Positions 16,384 through 21,079 of a stretch of DNA of 50,545 bases are shown here, in pieces. Numbering within the stretch: the first letter of the stretch is position 1; each line of letters starts with the position of its first letter. Source of the stretch: Gemmatimonadota bacterium (GTDB lineage: Bacteria; Gemmatimonadota; Gemmatimonadetes; Gemmatimonadales; Gemmatimonadaceae); assembly GCA_023249305.1 (NCBI GenBank), contig JAHFCU010000013.1:1-50545 (forward strand), read 5' to 3'. A model generated the notes under the pieces. That model worked only from the letters and a program-made list of their open reading frames with translations. It ran no database searches and was not told the DNA's origin. The position numbers and the translations under genes are program-made.

Positions 16384-17006
16384 TCCGCCTTGTGGTGCTT
16401 GGCTCGGTGGCGAACCCACAACCGCCAGCCAATGAAGGCCAGGACGAGTATGGCTACTCCGGCGCTGGCGCCGACGCGGCGACCCACGACGAGCAGCGTC
16501 CCTCGCACGTCCTCCCAGTCCGAGCCGACGCGGAATGAAAGCCAGATGATCAGCCCGTACCAGATGGTGCTCGCCACGGCAATCACGGCGATGTAGCGCA
16601 GCAGCTTTACCCGCAAGGCGCCAGCCATCGGCGGCACGACGGCGCGCAGCCCCGGCACAAAGCGGCTGACGAAGAGCGCAGCAAGGCCGTAGTGCGCGTA
16701 TAACCCCTCGAGACGCTCTTCGGCGTTGAGCATGTGCAACCGCCGGAGCTTGGTGTGCATCCAGTCCGCGCCAAACCGTCGCGCCACGCCGTAGATCACC
16801 AGCGCGCCGATGCTGCTGCCGGTGACGATGGCGGCAGTGACCGCGGGAAATTCTGCGCCGCGCCGCGCCGCGAGAAAGGCACCGAATGCCACCACGACAT
16901 CGGCGGGCGCCGGCGGAAAAATGCTCTCGGCAAACGCCACAAGACCCAGCAGCGCATACAGAGTGCGCAAGTCGAGGGCACTCACCCAGTCCAGCAGCGC
17001 CGTCAA
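16380..17006 (-). CDS. DedA/VTT-domain membrane protein
   Basis: 208 residues with four to five hydrophobic segments. It carries the DedA (SNARE-associated/VTT) hallmarks: FAESIFPPAPADVVVAFGAF early, a GSSIGALVIYGVARRFG loop, and FVSRFVPGLRAVVPPMAGAL. The Arg and Pro residues of the last motif are the conserved ones. DedA members are linked to undecaprenyl phosphate or phospholipid flipping and membrane homeostasis. A TTG at 17006 overlaps the ispF stop (TTGA). It gives a start with the short amphipathic lead usual for the family; the longer upstream frame is Arg-rich and lies inside ispF. Confidence 0.85.
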   Translation of the reverse strand: MTALLDWVSALDLRTLYALLGLVAFAESIFPPAPADVVVAFGAFLAARRGAEFPAVTAAIVTGSSIGALVIYGVARRFGADWMHTKLRRLHMLNAEERLEGLYAHYGLAALFVSRFVPGLRAVVPPMAGALRVKLLRYIAVIAVASTIWYGLIIWLSFRVGSDWEDVRGTLLVVGRRVGASAGVAILVLAFIGWRLWVRHRAKHHKAE

Positions 17007-17953
17007 CTCCGCTCCGCCTCGAACGCGTTGAGCGTGGCGATCGCAATCGCGGCGAGCCCCTCGCCACGGCCGATCCAGCCCATGCCCTCGTTGCTCTTTC
17101 CCTTGACCATGACGTCCGCGACGCTGACGTGGAGGGCATGCGCCAGCCGCTCGCGCATCGCGGCCCGGTACGGTCCGATGCGCGGCGACTCCGCGATGAC
17201 GGTCACGTCCACCTGGACCGGAGTCCAACCCGCCAACCGCACACGTTCGACGGCGAGGTGCAGCATCTCGATGGAATCGCGTCCCTTGTTCGCCGCATCC
17301 GCGTCCGAGAACATCTCGCCGACGTCGCCGACGCCGGCGCCGCCGAGAATCGCGTCGGTGACCGCGTGCGCCACGGCGTCTCCATCACTGTGGCCAAGCA
17401 GCTTCTGCGGCGACGGAATCAACACACCGCCGAGGACCATGCCGTCGCCCGGACCAAATTGGTGCGAGTCGTAGCCGACTCCCGTTCTCACTCGAAGTGC
17501 CGGGCGCGGAGCGGCAACCACGGGGACGTCGGTGTTGCGTTCGAACGGGATCTGGTCAAGGCGATCGCCAGAGATTCCTGCTTCGAGCAGCACGCGGCCC
17601 GCTCCGCTCTCGGGACTGTGGCCCATCGCCCGCAGAATGTCGCCCTCGGTCACGACACCGCCGCCACGGCGCTCGGCCTCTTCACCCGCCGTGCGCAGTA
17701 TGCCTTCGGCCGCGTCCTCGCTCTCGGCCATGGCGGCCGCCCCGGCGCCCGAGAGCCTAGACTCGACGGCGCGCAACAGCAGGTCCACCGGCATTCCCAG
17801 CATCGCGAGGGCCTGCGCCGCCGCGCCGTGCGGCGCGCGCAGCATGCCGAGCAGGAGGTGCAACGAGTTCGGCAGGTCGAGGCCATGTCGCTCGGCCTCC
17901 ACCATCGCGGCGTCAATCGCCTTGCGCGCACCTGATCCGAACCGGACACTCAT
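17003..17953 (-). CDS. ispF: IspF (MECDP synthase) fused to an N-terminal double Clp N-domain-like repeat
   Basis: 316 residues; ordinary IspF is about 160. The IspF domain is residues 154-312, with metal ligands in GVGYDSHQF (Asp162, His164) and HAVTDA (His196), GHSDGDAVAHA, and GKSNEGMGWIGRGEG. It makes 2-C-methyl-D-erythritol 2,4-cyclodiphosphate in the MEP isoprenoid pathway. Residues 4-69 and 78-136 look like two Clp_N repeats: ARKAIDAAMVEAERHGLDLP then HLLLGMLRAPHGAAAQAL, and a second copy with EEAERRGGGVVTEGDILRAM. The ATG at 17953 has GAGGG 9-13 bases upstream and lies 13 bases after mqnC. The fusion is read continuously without frameshift. Confidence 0.9.
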   Translation of the reverse strand: MSVRFGSGARKAIDAAMVEAERHGLDLPNSLHLLLGMLRAPHGAAAQALAMLGMPVDLLLRAVESRLSGAGAAAMAESEDAAEGILRTAGEEAERRGGGVVTEGDILRAMGHSPESGAGRVLLEAGISGDRLDQIPFERNTDVPVVAAPRPALRVRTGVGYDSHQFGPGDGMVLGGVLIPSPQKLLGHSDGDAVAHAVTDAILGGAGVGDVGEMFSDADAANKGRDSIEMLHLAVERVRLAGWTPVQVDVTVIAESPRIGPYRAAMRERLAHALHVSVADVMVKGKSNEGMGWIGRGEGLAAIAIATLNAFEAERS

Positions 17954-17966
17954 GCGGGCATTCCCT

Positions 17967-19007
17967 CTACGCCGCGGCGTTGGCGATGAGTTGGTAGTCC
18001 TGCCGCCGACGGCGGGGCGTGAAGCCCGCGTCGGTGATGAGCCGCTCCATCTCGTCCGTCGTGGTGTGATACGTGGTGTTCGCCGCGGACACGACATTCT
18101 CCTCGATCATCAGCGAGCCGAAGTCATTGCAGCCATAGGATAATGCAATTTGCCCAATCTTCATGCCCATTGTCACCCAGCTGGCCTGGATGTTGGGAAT
18201 GTTGTCGAGCACAAGCCGCGAAAAGGCCACGGTGCGGAGATACTCTACGGCGTCGGTCTTGGGTTGCCGGCTCATCTGCGGTGTGTTCTCCGGCTGGAGC
18301 GGCCACGTGATGAACGCCGTGAATCCGCCGGTGCGCGCCTGCACGTCGCGCAGCCGCACGAGGTGCTCCATCCGCTCCTCGAGCGTCTCGCCAATGCCGA
18401 ACATCATCGTGCACGATGTTTTCAGCCCTTCCTCGTGCGCGATCTCCATGATCTCGAGCCAGCGGTCGGCGCCGGCTTTCCTGCGCGCGACGATGTCGCG
18501 CACGCGCTGCACGAGAATCTCGCCGCCGCCGCCGGGAATCGAGTCCAGCCCCGCGGCGATGAGTTGCCGCACCACCTCGCGTGCATCCATGCGGTACAGC
18601 GTGGACCAGAAATCCACTTCACTCGGGGAGAAGCCGTGCACGTGGATCGGGTGGTTGCGCTTGATGTAGCGGATGAGCTCCAGGTACCACTCGAACGGGA
18701 TATACGGGTTGTGCCCGCCCTGGATCAGGATCTGCACTCCGCCCAGCGCCTTCGTCTCCTCGATCTTCTCGCCGATCTGCTCGTACGACAGCGTGTAGCC
18801 TTCGCCGTGCTTCGGGCGCCGATAGAAGGCGCAAAATCCGCAATCGGCCACGCAGACATTCGTGTAGTTGATGTTGCGGTCCACGATGTACGTGACCACC
18901 CCCTCGGGGTGCAGCTCGCGGCGCCGGGCGTCGGCGAGCGCGCCCAGCTCGAGGAGAGGCGCGTGCTTGTAGAGGTCGAGGAAGTTGGAGAGCTCAGACA
19001 TGGTCAC
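17967..19007 (-). CDS. mqnC: Cyclic dehypoxanthinylfutalosine synthase (radical SAM)
   Basis: 346 residues. The radical SAM cluster motif CX3CX2C lies in NYTNVCVADCGFCAFYRRP. GGVQILIQGGHNP, FSPSEVDFWS and SIPGGGGEIL are typical of MqnC. It cyclises dehypoxanthine futalosine in the futalosine route to menaquinone. The start is a GTG at 19007 or an in-frame ATG two codons later (19001); neither has a strong ribosome site. It follows mqnA by 57 bases and lies in the same unit as mqnE. Confidence 0.94.
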   Translation of the reverse strand: MTMSELSNFLDLYKHAPLLELGALADARRRELHPEGVVTYIVDRNINYTNVCVADCGFCAFYRRPKHGEGYTLSYEQIGEKIEETKALGGVQILIQGGHNPYIPFEWYLELIRYIKRNHPIHVHGFSPSEVDFWSTLYRMDAREVVRQLIAAGLDSIPGGGGEILVQRVRDIVARRKAGADRWLEIMEIAHEEGLKTSCTMMFGIGETLEERMEHLVRLRDVQARTGGFTAFITWPLQPENTPQMSRQPKTDAVEYLRTVAFSRLVLDNIPNIQASWVTMGMKIGQIALSYGCNDFGSLMIEENVVSAANTTYHTTTDEMERLITDAGFTPRRRRQDYQLIANAAA

Positions 19008-19064
19008 ATCGAGAGAAGGGGGCGAAGGGCGACCGCTCCGTTGCGGGCCGACCGTGAAACAACA

Positions 19065-19910
19065 TCAGGCCGCCGGAAGGAAGACGAGTCGTCCCTGCGG
19101 CACCTTGCCCGCGAGCTCAAGTCGTCGGAAGAACTCCGAGAGTCCCTCCAGGTACTCGAGCCCCAGTCCATAATCGAGTCCCGCGAGATACTCGTGCACG
19201 ACGGCCGCCGGAAGTTGGCAAACAGGCGAGGCGTCCTCCGAAATCCGCCTCAGATTCGCGAGCCCCCAATTTCGACTCTCAATCAGCGCGCCGTGCACCG
19301 CGAGCGCGTCGCGAGCGCTCACTTCGCGCCGTGCCACCCAGACCGCGAAGACGAACGGAAGCCCGGTCCATTGTTTCCACTCCGCACCGAGGTCGTAGAC
19401 GAACGGGTATTTGCGCCCGTGCGCCGCAGCCACCGGATGCTCCGGATGACGAAGCATGAGGGCCGCGTCGCCGATGACGAGCCGCGCCGCCACGGGCGAC
19501 TGGTCGCGCTGCAGATCGTCCGCCTCGGTATCACCCGGTGTGAAGATCGGCTTCACCTTCCAGACATGTTCGAAGAGCAGGTCGAGCAGCGCGACGGAGG
19601 TCATCGAACTGCGGCTCACGAGCACCTGTTCACCCGCCAGCTCCGTGGCCGGTCGCGTCGAGAAGAGCATCACGCTCCGCACGGGGCCGTCGCACGAAAT
19701 CGCGAGGTCTGGGAGCAGCAGGTACCTCGACGCGTCACGCGCATACTCAACCGCCGACACCACCGACACGTCAATGCGACCCTCGGCAACACCGCGGTTG
19801 AGCGCCGACGGCACGCCGCTCACCAGCTCGGCGTCAAGCGTCACGATACCGCGATCCACCGCGCCGTAGACCGGCGCACAGTTGAGGTACGGAATACGGC
19901 CGACGCGCAT
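19065..19910 (-). CDS. mqnA: Chorismate dehydratase
   Basis: 281 residues, a periplasmic-binding-protein-like fold used as a soluble enzyme. The N-terminus is RVGRIPYLNCAPVYGAVD. Conserved segments include VSVVSAVEYARD, SRSSMTSVALLDLLFE, LVIGDAALMLR and a GLPFVFAVWVARRE segment. It converts chorismate to 3-enolpyruvylbenzoate, the first step of the futalosine pathway. The ATG shares one base with the mqnE stop (TGATG at 19910), so MqnE and MqnA, which act consecutively, are translationally coupled. Confidence 0.93.
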   Translation of the reverse strand: MRVGRIPYLNCAPVYGAVDRGIVTLDAELVSGVPSALNRGVAEGRIDVSVVSAVEYARDASRYLLLPDLAISCDGPVRSVMLFSTRPATELAGEQVLVSRSSMTSVALLDLLFEHVWKVKPIFTPGDTEADDLQRDQSPVAARLVIGDAALMLRHPEHPVAAAHGRKYPFVYDLGAEWKQWTGLPFVFAVWVARREVSARDALAVHGALIESRNWGLANLRRISEDASPVCQLPAAVVHEYLAGLDYGLGLEYLEGLSEFFRRLELAGKVPQGRLVFLPAA

Positions 19911-21079
19911 CAGGACGCTCCGACCGGTACCGGGGTGGCGTCGAACTCCGTGCGCAGGATGCGATAGAAGGAATCACGCTCGGATGGGGTCTTCCCGGCG
20001 CCCCGAATGAGCCTGAGGATCTCGGCGAGCGACATCGCCTGCGGCGTCTGCGCGCCGACGGCGTGGTAGATCTTCTCGCGCACGACGGTGCCTTCGAGGT
20101 CGTTAACGCCGTAGTGCAGCGCCACCTGCGACAGTTGCGGCGTGACCATGATCCAATGCGACTTGACGTGCTGGAAGTTGTCGAGGAACAACCGGCCGAC
20201 GGCGAGCTGCTTGAGGTCGTCCCAGCCCGTGGTCGCGGTGCCCTGCCGGCCCAGCTCCTTGCCGAGCGCGTTGTCGTCCGGATGGTACGCGAGCGGGATG
20301 TAGGCGAGGAAGCCGCCGGTCTCATCCTGCAGGTCGCGCAACATCTGCAGGTGCTGTAGGCGGTCGTCAGGCGTCTCGACGTGGCCGTACAGCATCGTGC
20401 AGTTCGTGCGGATGCCGACTATGTGCGCGGTGCGGTGCACGCCGATGTACTCGGCGCCAGCGAGCTTCTTGTCCGAAATGCGCTCGCGCACCGCGGCGCT
20501 GAACGTCTCGGCGCCGCCGCCGGGCATGGTGTCGAGCCCCGCCTCCTTCAGCGCCACGAGCACGTCCCGCCACGGCATCTTCTCGATGCGGGCGATATGC
20601 GCGATCTCCACCGCGGTAAGCGCCTTGATGTGCACGTGCGGGAAGTTCGCCTTCAGCGCGCGGAACATCTCGGCGTAGTAGGCGAGCCCCGCCTTCATGT
20701 CGAGCCCGCCGACGATGTGGAACTCGCGAGTCATGCCGTCGGCCGCCTGCGCCGCCTCGGCCAGCACCTGATCCAGCGTGTACCGGTACGCACCGTTCTC
20801 CTTGGGGAGTCGGGCGTACCCGCAGAAGACGCACGTCTTCCGCAGTACGCAGATGTTGGTCGGGTTGATGTGCTGGTTCGACGCAAAGGTCACCACGTCG
20901 CCGTTCTTGGCCCTGTTCACGGCGTCGGCCAGCGCGCCGAGCCCCGCCAGATCCCGCGTGCGGAAGAGCGCGAGGCCGTCCGCGATGCTCAGGCGCTGGC
21001 TCGCCGCGACGCGCTCGCCGATGCGGCGCAGGACCGGGTCGTGGATGCGGTCAAACGGAACCTGCGGTGCCGCGGCCAT
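19910..21079 (-). CDS. mqnE: Aminofutalosine synthase (radical SAM), with CX5CX2C cluster motif
   Basis: 389 residues. The N-terminus has LFRTRDLAGLGALADAVN and a GDVVTFASNQHINPTNIC lead-in typical of MqnE. The radical SAM cysteines fall in CVLRKTCVFCGY, i.e. CX5CX2C rather than the CX3CX2C seen in MqnC here. GGLDMKAGLAYYAEMF, MPGGGAETFS and LAYIPLAYHPDDNAL follow. It joins 3-enolpyruvylbenzoate and SAM-derived 5'-deoxyadenosine to give aminofutalosine. It begins 4 bases after fabF and overlaps mqnA. Confidence 0.92.
   Translation of the reverse strand: MAAAPQVPFDRIHDPVLRRIGERVAASQRLSIADGLALFRTRDLAGLGALADAVNRAKNGDVVTFASNQHINPTNICVLRKTCVFCGYARLPKENGAYRYTLDQVLAEAAQAADGMTREFHIVGGLDMKAGLAYYAEMFRALKANFPHVHIKALTAVEIAHIARIEKMPWRDVLVALKEAGLDTMPGGGAETFSAAVRERISDKKLAGAEYIGVHRTAHIVGIRTNCTMLYGHVETPDDRLQHLQMLRDLQDETGGFLAYIPLAYHPDDNALGKELGRQGTATTGWDDLKQLAVGRLFLDNFQHVKSHWIMVTPQLSQVALHYGVNDLEGTVVREKIYHAVGAQTPQAMSLAEILRLIRGAGKTPSERDSFYRILRTEFDATPVPVGAS

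Follow-up and report, generated by a model that had tools for sequence, protein, structure and literature searches.

A Clp N-domain fused to the isoprenoid enzyme IspF in two genera of a Gemmatimonad family

A gene on the minus strand of the window, which is the whole 50,545-nucleotide stretch of DNA that was analyzed, joins a Clp N-domain to the isoprenoid enzyme IspF. This Clp_N-IspF fusion is a genuine two-domain protein and not an artefact. The best reading of its N-domain is that it may have a docking role in general. The gene and its surroundings have these features:

17003-17953 (minus strand): Clp_N-IspF fusion gene, 316 amino acids; open frame and translation, Pfam, same fusion in 12 further genomes
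17558-17953 (minus strand): Clp N-domain, residues 1-132; Pfam, PDB profile search, AF2 with Foldseek
17750-17953 (minus strand): N-domain repeat 1, residues 1-68; canonical by sequence, hhalign 95.8%
17558-17749 (minus strand): N-domain repeat 2, residues 69-132; degenerate in sequence, fold kept in the model
17489-17557 (minus strand): variable linker, residues 133-155; median dN/dS 0.64
17030-17488 (minus strand): IspF (MEcDP synthase) domain, residues 156-308; Pfam, TIGR00151, polar residues
17962-17969 (minus strand): ribosome-binding region, which overlaps the mqnC stop and reads TAGAGGG in the window
17967-19007 (minus strand): mqnC, directly upstream of the fusion; TIGR03699 at 463 bits (cut-off, 428); the neighbour used for dating the insertion

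The two domains and their reading frame

Translation of positions 17003 to 17953 gave a 316-residue frame that starts with ATG, ends with TGA, and has no internal stops. This bears out the coordinates and the single uninterrupted frame that an earlier note on this DNA had given. The C-terminal part matched the Pfam YgbB/IspF family (PF02542) over residues 156 to 308 (182.1 bits against a cut-off of 26.7; E value, 1.2e-53), and the NCBIfam ispF model TIGR00151 scored 171.3 bits, above its cut-off of 116.45. It is the sole IspF match in the window's genome, which is 79% complete. The IspF domain was aligned to 4c8e, and all 12 polar residues tested in it were identical across 11 of 11 fused proteins. 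Among these are D162, H164, H188, and E289, which, with others, we take to be active-site or presumed metal-ligand residues of IspF. The enzyme half would be a standard IspF, or MEcDP synthase, that is probably active and should form a trimer. An IspD domain was absent N-terminal to IspF: the NF006899 model reached 199.8 bits, below its cut-off of 417, and covered only residues 150 to 313, which is the IspF half. Furthermore, a Pfam scan of the whole protein gave no AAA+ match, the sole related signal being a Cdc6 lid at 13.4 bits (cut-off, 27).

The earlier note had described the N-terminal extension as two Clp_N-like helical repeats. In the window protein, the Pfam Clp_N family (PF02861) did match above its cut-off, at residues 31 to 67 (26.7 versus 20.7 bits; E value, 6.5e-6). 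In eight fused relatives, five scored above this cut-off and three below it (19.9, 17.3, and 18.4 bits). The NCBIfam ClpB model matched weakly (E value, 0.012), yet it aligned residues 9 to 134 to ClpB residues 5 to 133. When a profile built from 13 fused N-domain sequences was searched against the PDB, it found ClpC N-domain chains 2k77, 2y1r, and 5hbn at an E value of 2e-13, and 37 distinct sequences at E values of 0.01 or less.

AF2 predicted residues 1 to 136 to fold into four plus four main helices (mean pLDDT, 87.6; pTM, 0.85), using 11 alignment rows and with one good model of five (pLDDT of the other four, 60.5 to 52.7). The predicted helices are 7-22, 30-39, 44-51, and 56-67 in repeat 1, followed by a short extra helix at 69-74, and 81-95, 103-111, 117-124, and 129-133 in repeat 2. 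All 42 Foldseek matches of this model in the PDB at E values of 0.001 or less were Clp/Hsp100 chains, nearly all of them ClpC and three ClpB. Their TM scores, normalised by the query, were about 0.71 to 0.80 along the whole domain.

We also compared each repeat alone with ClpC-type N-domains, using 11 of the 13 fused rows. The hhalign probability was 95.8% for repeat 1 and 2.6% for repeat 2. The best PDB match of repeat 2 was a ClpC chain, 3fes, in register, but it had an E value of 0.029 and stood among unrelated chains. Therefore, the fold of both repeats stands on the AF2 model and the Foldseek matches, and repeat 1 stands by sequence as well, whereas repeat 2 does not stand by sequence alone. 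With a canonical first repeat and a sub-significant second one that keeps the fold, this is a double Clp N-domain that has diverged strongly in its second half. A full-length AF2 model (mean pLDDT, 57.5) had IspF and ClpC as its Foldseek matches, and its linker was without secondary structure except for the last helix end. The IspF part of that model, again built from 11 rows, was poor and hence was excluded from any reading of the domain arrangement.

In 45 species pairs drawn from 10 of the 11 species in the window's genus (g1), the N-domain had a median dN/dS of 0.096 and IspF one of 0.116, against 0.64 in the linker; the linker was taken as residues 133 to 151, with finite values in 42 of the 45 pairs. 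Purifying selection on the N-domain is as strong as on the catalytic domain, and the difference between its dN/dS and that of the linker indicates that some function is being maintained.

Could the true product be a short IspF made from an internal start, with the extension untranslated or an artefact? The earlier note had pointed to a GTG near residue 155, and codon 155 of the window protein is indeed GTG. However, it has a start-like counterpart in only 5 of 10 g1 species, and another of the 10, at locus L034, has no start-like codon among the 25 codons before GYDS. No internal start is therefore conserved. Upstream, TAGGAG overlaps the mqnC stop ahead of the ATG in 8 of 10 g1 species (the window has TAGAGGG and L094 has TAAGGA). 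Because of this sequence, and because the internal start is not conserved, these loci should yield the full-length protein. The low dN/dS of the N-domain and the agreement of 13 assemblies also speak against a short product, which we regard as highly improbable. With a Clp_N match present and a short start not conserved, the two conditions that the earlier note had named as refuting did not refute it.

Distribution of the fusion

The N-domain was present in 13 of 179 genomes of the window's family at E values below 1e-13. These were 10 of the 11 genomes of g1 and all three genomes of a second genus, g18. All 13 N-domains share one frame with IspF (in G353 and G354, this was seen via loci L092 and L094). 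In G175, the 11th g1 genome, the contig ends where the IspF part begins. An assembly chimera is ruled out, because 13 genomes carry the same fusion and the sole exception is this contig end.

A profile search of the phylum (395 genomes; E values of 1e-9 or less) returned the same 13 plus three weaker matches. Two of these, in G289 and G091, are open frames of 903 and 921 amino acids, which is ClpB-type size, and they run off their loci. The third, in G214, is Clp_N fused to a calcium/proton exchanger. This 569-amino-acid ORF (L196:199-1908, minus strand) is a Clp_N graft onto a non-ATPase and was seen in one genome, which belongs to another family of the same order. It scored 340 bits with TIGR00378 (cut-off, 211) and 65.9 bits with PF02861, in two stretches. 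Free-standing Clp_N proteins of 187 to 225 amino acids, without ATPase domains, are encoded in three genera of the window's family (L074:1357-2034, minus strand; L079:1390-1953, plus strand; L081:1372-1977, minus strand).

A scan with two N-domain peptide patterns yielded 184 stretches and 10 confirmed loci, all in Gemmatimonad MAGs (named Gemmatimonadetes or Gemmatimonadota bacterium, Gemmatimonas sp., or Gemmatimonadaceae bacterium). Other phyla were covered by this two-pattern scan alone, so that a diverged Clp_N-IspF elsewhere could escape it. The earlier note knew of no described Clp_N-IspF protein, and we likewise found none in the literature searched, which consisted of open-licence papers.

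ClpC ligand positions, Clp machinery, and possible roles of the N-domain

The Clp N-domain has been studied as a control and drug-binding part of ClpC. E32 and E106 of ClpC are in its two phospho-arginine pockets (E32 in pArg2 and E106 in pArg1), MecA binds both, and K85 and T7 make resting-state contacts, according to the relevant parts of PMC12583610. In the fused N-domains, E32 has become Leu and K85 has become Glu in 13 of 13, and T7 is Gly (10 proteins) or Gln (3 proteins). The place of E106 is taken by Gly, Ala, or Ser in an ungapped register, or by Glu or Asp once the register is moved one residue, to where the helix is predicted to begin; for both K85 and E106, the register rests on the repeat 2 alignment of 2.6% probability. 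The four positions are T, E, K, and E in all 13 reference rows, which comprise 12 ClpC-type proteins and a single free-standing Clp_N protein. At the same time, R4, H32, RKAID, and SLHLLLG are invariant across g1 and g18, in a domain that is otherwise 37 to 41% identical. Changed ClpC ligand positions together with these invariant ones suggest a rebuilt, specific surface. A phospho-arginine receptor of the ClpC kind is disfavoured on its residues (E32 is Leu in all 13), with the register in doubt in repeat 2.

We searched 14 genomes for Clp partners. ClpS was found in none of them (the same search was positive in 5 of 14 control genomes), and MecA was found in none of them (positive in 2 of 14 controls). 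Docking through ClpS or MecA was rejected because neither was found in the 14 genomes searched. The earlier note pointed out that Clp_N domains normally recruit adaptors or substrates to ClpA, ClpB, or ClpC, and that on an enzyme they could mark it for regulated proteolysis or act as a docking module. Recruitment of adaptors in the ClpC manner is not supported, given these two negative searches and the changes at E32, K85, and T7 in 13 of 13.

ClpP was present in 14 of 14 genomes (controls, 12 of 14). So was an McsB-type ATP:guanido-phosphotransferase gene, which in 13 of them is at most about 1.5 kb from a ClpC-type gene, a label assigned by size, neighbour, and N-domain, with no ClpC model used. 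We call the kinase McsB-like because the one in the window's own genome falls short of both McsB equivalog cut-offs, with 339 bits against 500 and 358 against 385. The control value is lowered for two of the searches: the PF00217 kinase search was positive in 0 of 14 control genomes, including Bacillus subtilis, and PF02861 was positive in 9 of 14 but not in B. subtilis, a species that would be expected to have both families. Six non-fused relatives among the 14 genomes share these ClpP and kinase genes. Therefore, this gene set does not track the fusion. In the window's genome, the McsB-type arginine-kinase gene (contig C70, L187:1728-2807, minus strand) is directly upstream of a ClpC-type gene.

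With middling confidence, we propose that the N-domain may be a repurposed docking module, with a dedicated partner of its own, on an active IspF. Each IspF subunit would carry a Clp N-domain via the variable linker. The N-domain would bind its partner by a surface other than the phospho-arginine and MecA sites of ClpC, and this binding would localise or control IspF. A Clp-linked partner would be possible but not required. The proposal draws on the docking-domain fold, the selection on it, the identity of the active-site-type residues of IspF in 11 of 11 proteins, and the rebuilt surface. It also draws on the other detached Clp_N domains of the phylum, namely, the free-standing proteins and the exchanger fusion. 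Against it, purifying selection on the N-domain also fits a purely structural domain, a shifted register would keep an acid at E106, and the AF2 model came from 11 rows, with one good model of five.

Alternatively, the N-domain might link IspF to ClpC-ClpP (or ClpB), with the amount of IspF being set by regulated proteolysis or refolding. Such a link would suit genomes that all have ClpP and an McsB-like kinase, the latter near a ClpC-type gene in 13 of 14. It would also have a precedent, since the MEP-pathway enzyme DXS is degraded via ClpC in Arabidopsis plastids (PMC4729485, in the part concerned). ClpC N-domains touch ClpC's other domains, as a part of PMC12583610 describes, so a free N-domain could bind ClpC. 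However, E32, K85, and T7 are changed, as is E106 in the ungapped register, neither ClpS nor MecA turned up in any of the 14 genomes, and the ClpP and kinase set is equally present in the six relatives without an N-domain match. We consider control of IspF by Clp turnover possible but unlikely. The N-domain could also be purely structural and aid the folding, stability, or higher assembly of IspF without any outside partner. Strong selection on the N-domain is compatible with this, and the bifunctional IspDF (1w55, 8xhu) also bears an N-terminal partner domain on IspF, which indicates that the IspF N-terminus tolerates domains. However, the linker is under little constraint (dN/dS, 0.64), a sign that the domain may move independently, and other IspF proteins of the family lack the domain: of 102 genomes, 91 could be compared, and 9 of these have it. 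A purely structural role therefore seems improbable to us.

Several known systems resemble the fusion in part. The ClpC N-domain, the PF02861 double repeat of 2k77, 2y1r, and 5hbn, is alike in its whole fold (TM score, about 0.71 to 0.80) and in the sequence of repeat 1, but the fusion is without AAA+ domains, has changes at E32, K85, T7, and probably E106, and forms its own clade. IspDF is also an IspF with an extra N-terminal domain, although the extra domain of the fusion is not IspD; it is the only IspF fusion named in the relevant parts of two MEP papers (PMC10663253, PMC13001223). Mycobacterial ClpC2 likewise carries a ClpC-N-like domain although it is not itself a Clp ATPase, and it binds cyclomarin A in competition with ClpC1; however, it has no fused enzyme, binds DNA, and represses itself (part of PMC10030653). 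Plant DXS, under ClpC/ClpB3 control, also belongs to the MEP pathway, and Clp chaperones decide its fate. It differs in being another enzyme with J20/Hsp70 delivery, and the part of PMC4729485 concerned does not mention any Clp_N domain fused to it. ClpN repeats also occur on vWA proteins of bacterial conflict systems, but these are not metabolic enzymes and are rare variants of another system (PMC7159879, in part). The conservation of a Clp N-domain on a core biosynthetic enzyme indicates that this fold can be detached and reused. It also raises a testable question: are bacterial MEP enzymes under Clp control, like plastid DXS, or is the fold a general docking part?

Gene neighbourhood and evolutionary history

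Directly upstream of the ispF fusion, at positions 17967 to 21079, the window has futalosine-route menaquinone genes in a row: mqnC (over the TIGR03699 cut-off), an mqnA-like gene (PF02621), and mqnE (over the TIGR03700 cut-off). Thus, IspF, which contributes to the tail of the quinone, is encoded next to genes for its head. Among the 102 family genomes in which IspF was matched, 91 have mqnC beside ispF on the same contig and strand (the survey omits G083 and G360, in which the only MqnC match is a distant paralogue). The median gap between the mqnC and ispF matches in those 91 was 61 nucleotides, and it exceeded 200 nucleotides in 11 genomes: six of g1, three of g18, and two of genus g14.

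In a tree of 21 rows, 7 of the 13 fused proteins among them, the g1 and g18 N-domains group as a single clade (support, 98/95), apart from the ClpC-type, ClpB-like, and free-standing Clp_N proteins of the same family. In trees of MqnC (45 of the 96 matches, excluding L159 and the genomes that lacked a locus) and IspF (54 rows, of which 50 were from the family and 4 were outgroup; L040, L058, L105, L112, L116, L121, L125, L128, and L129 omitted), g1 groups with g2, g9, and g26, and g18 groups, with modest support, with g10 and g16. By the AU test, a single clade of the fused genera was not rejected by MqnC (p-AU, 0.166) or by IspF (p-AU, 0.139) but was rejected by the two joined (p-AU, 0.0017; 33 genomes). 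Whole-gene transfer between g1 and g18 is therefore rejected by the joined genes, although by neither alone. On these trees, g1 and g18 are not sister genera. Three histories would fit this pattern: the N-terminal part moved laterally, there were repeated losses, or two fusions drew on the same unsampled source.

More tentatively, and with considerable doubt, the N-domain could be a dedicated receptor that couples IspF, and hence the isoprenoid tail of the menaquinone that the adjoining mqn genes produce, to a Clp chaperone or protease or to another control partner. A module that moved between non-sister genera at the same junction would then be a portable regulatory graft on an enzyme of core metabolism, in a phylum where Clp_N is also grafted onto a calcium/proton exchanger. 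An N-domain common to two such genera is in any event a case for studying the movement of regulatory domains between lineages at one junction.

Genus g14 was a candidate for a third fused genus on account of its gap of 427 to 436 nucleotides between mqnC and ispF, but it was rejected because the gap holds a separate purE gene instead. An Rfam search of one g14 locus gave no match. The purE gene (AIR carboxylase, PF00731) lies between mqnC and ispF at L119:1968-2387 (minus strand) and at the matching place in L115. Its presence there indicates that the mqnC-ispF junction took insertions in a third genus.
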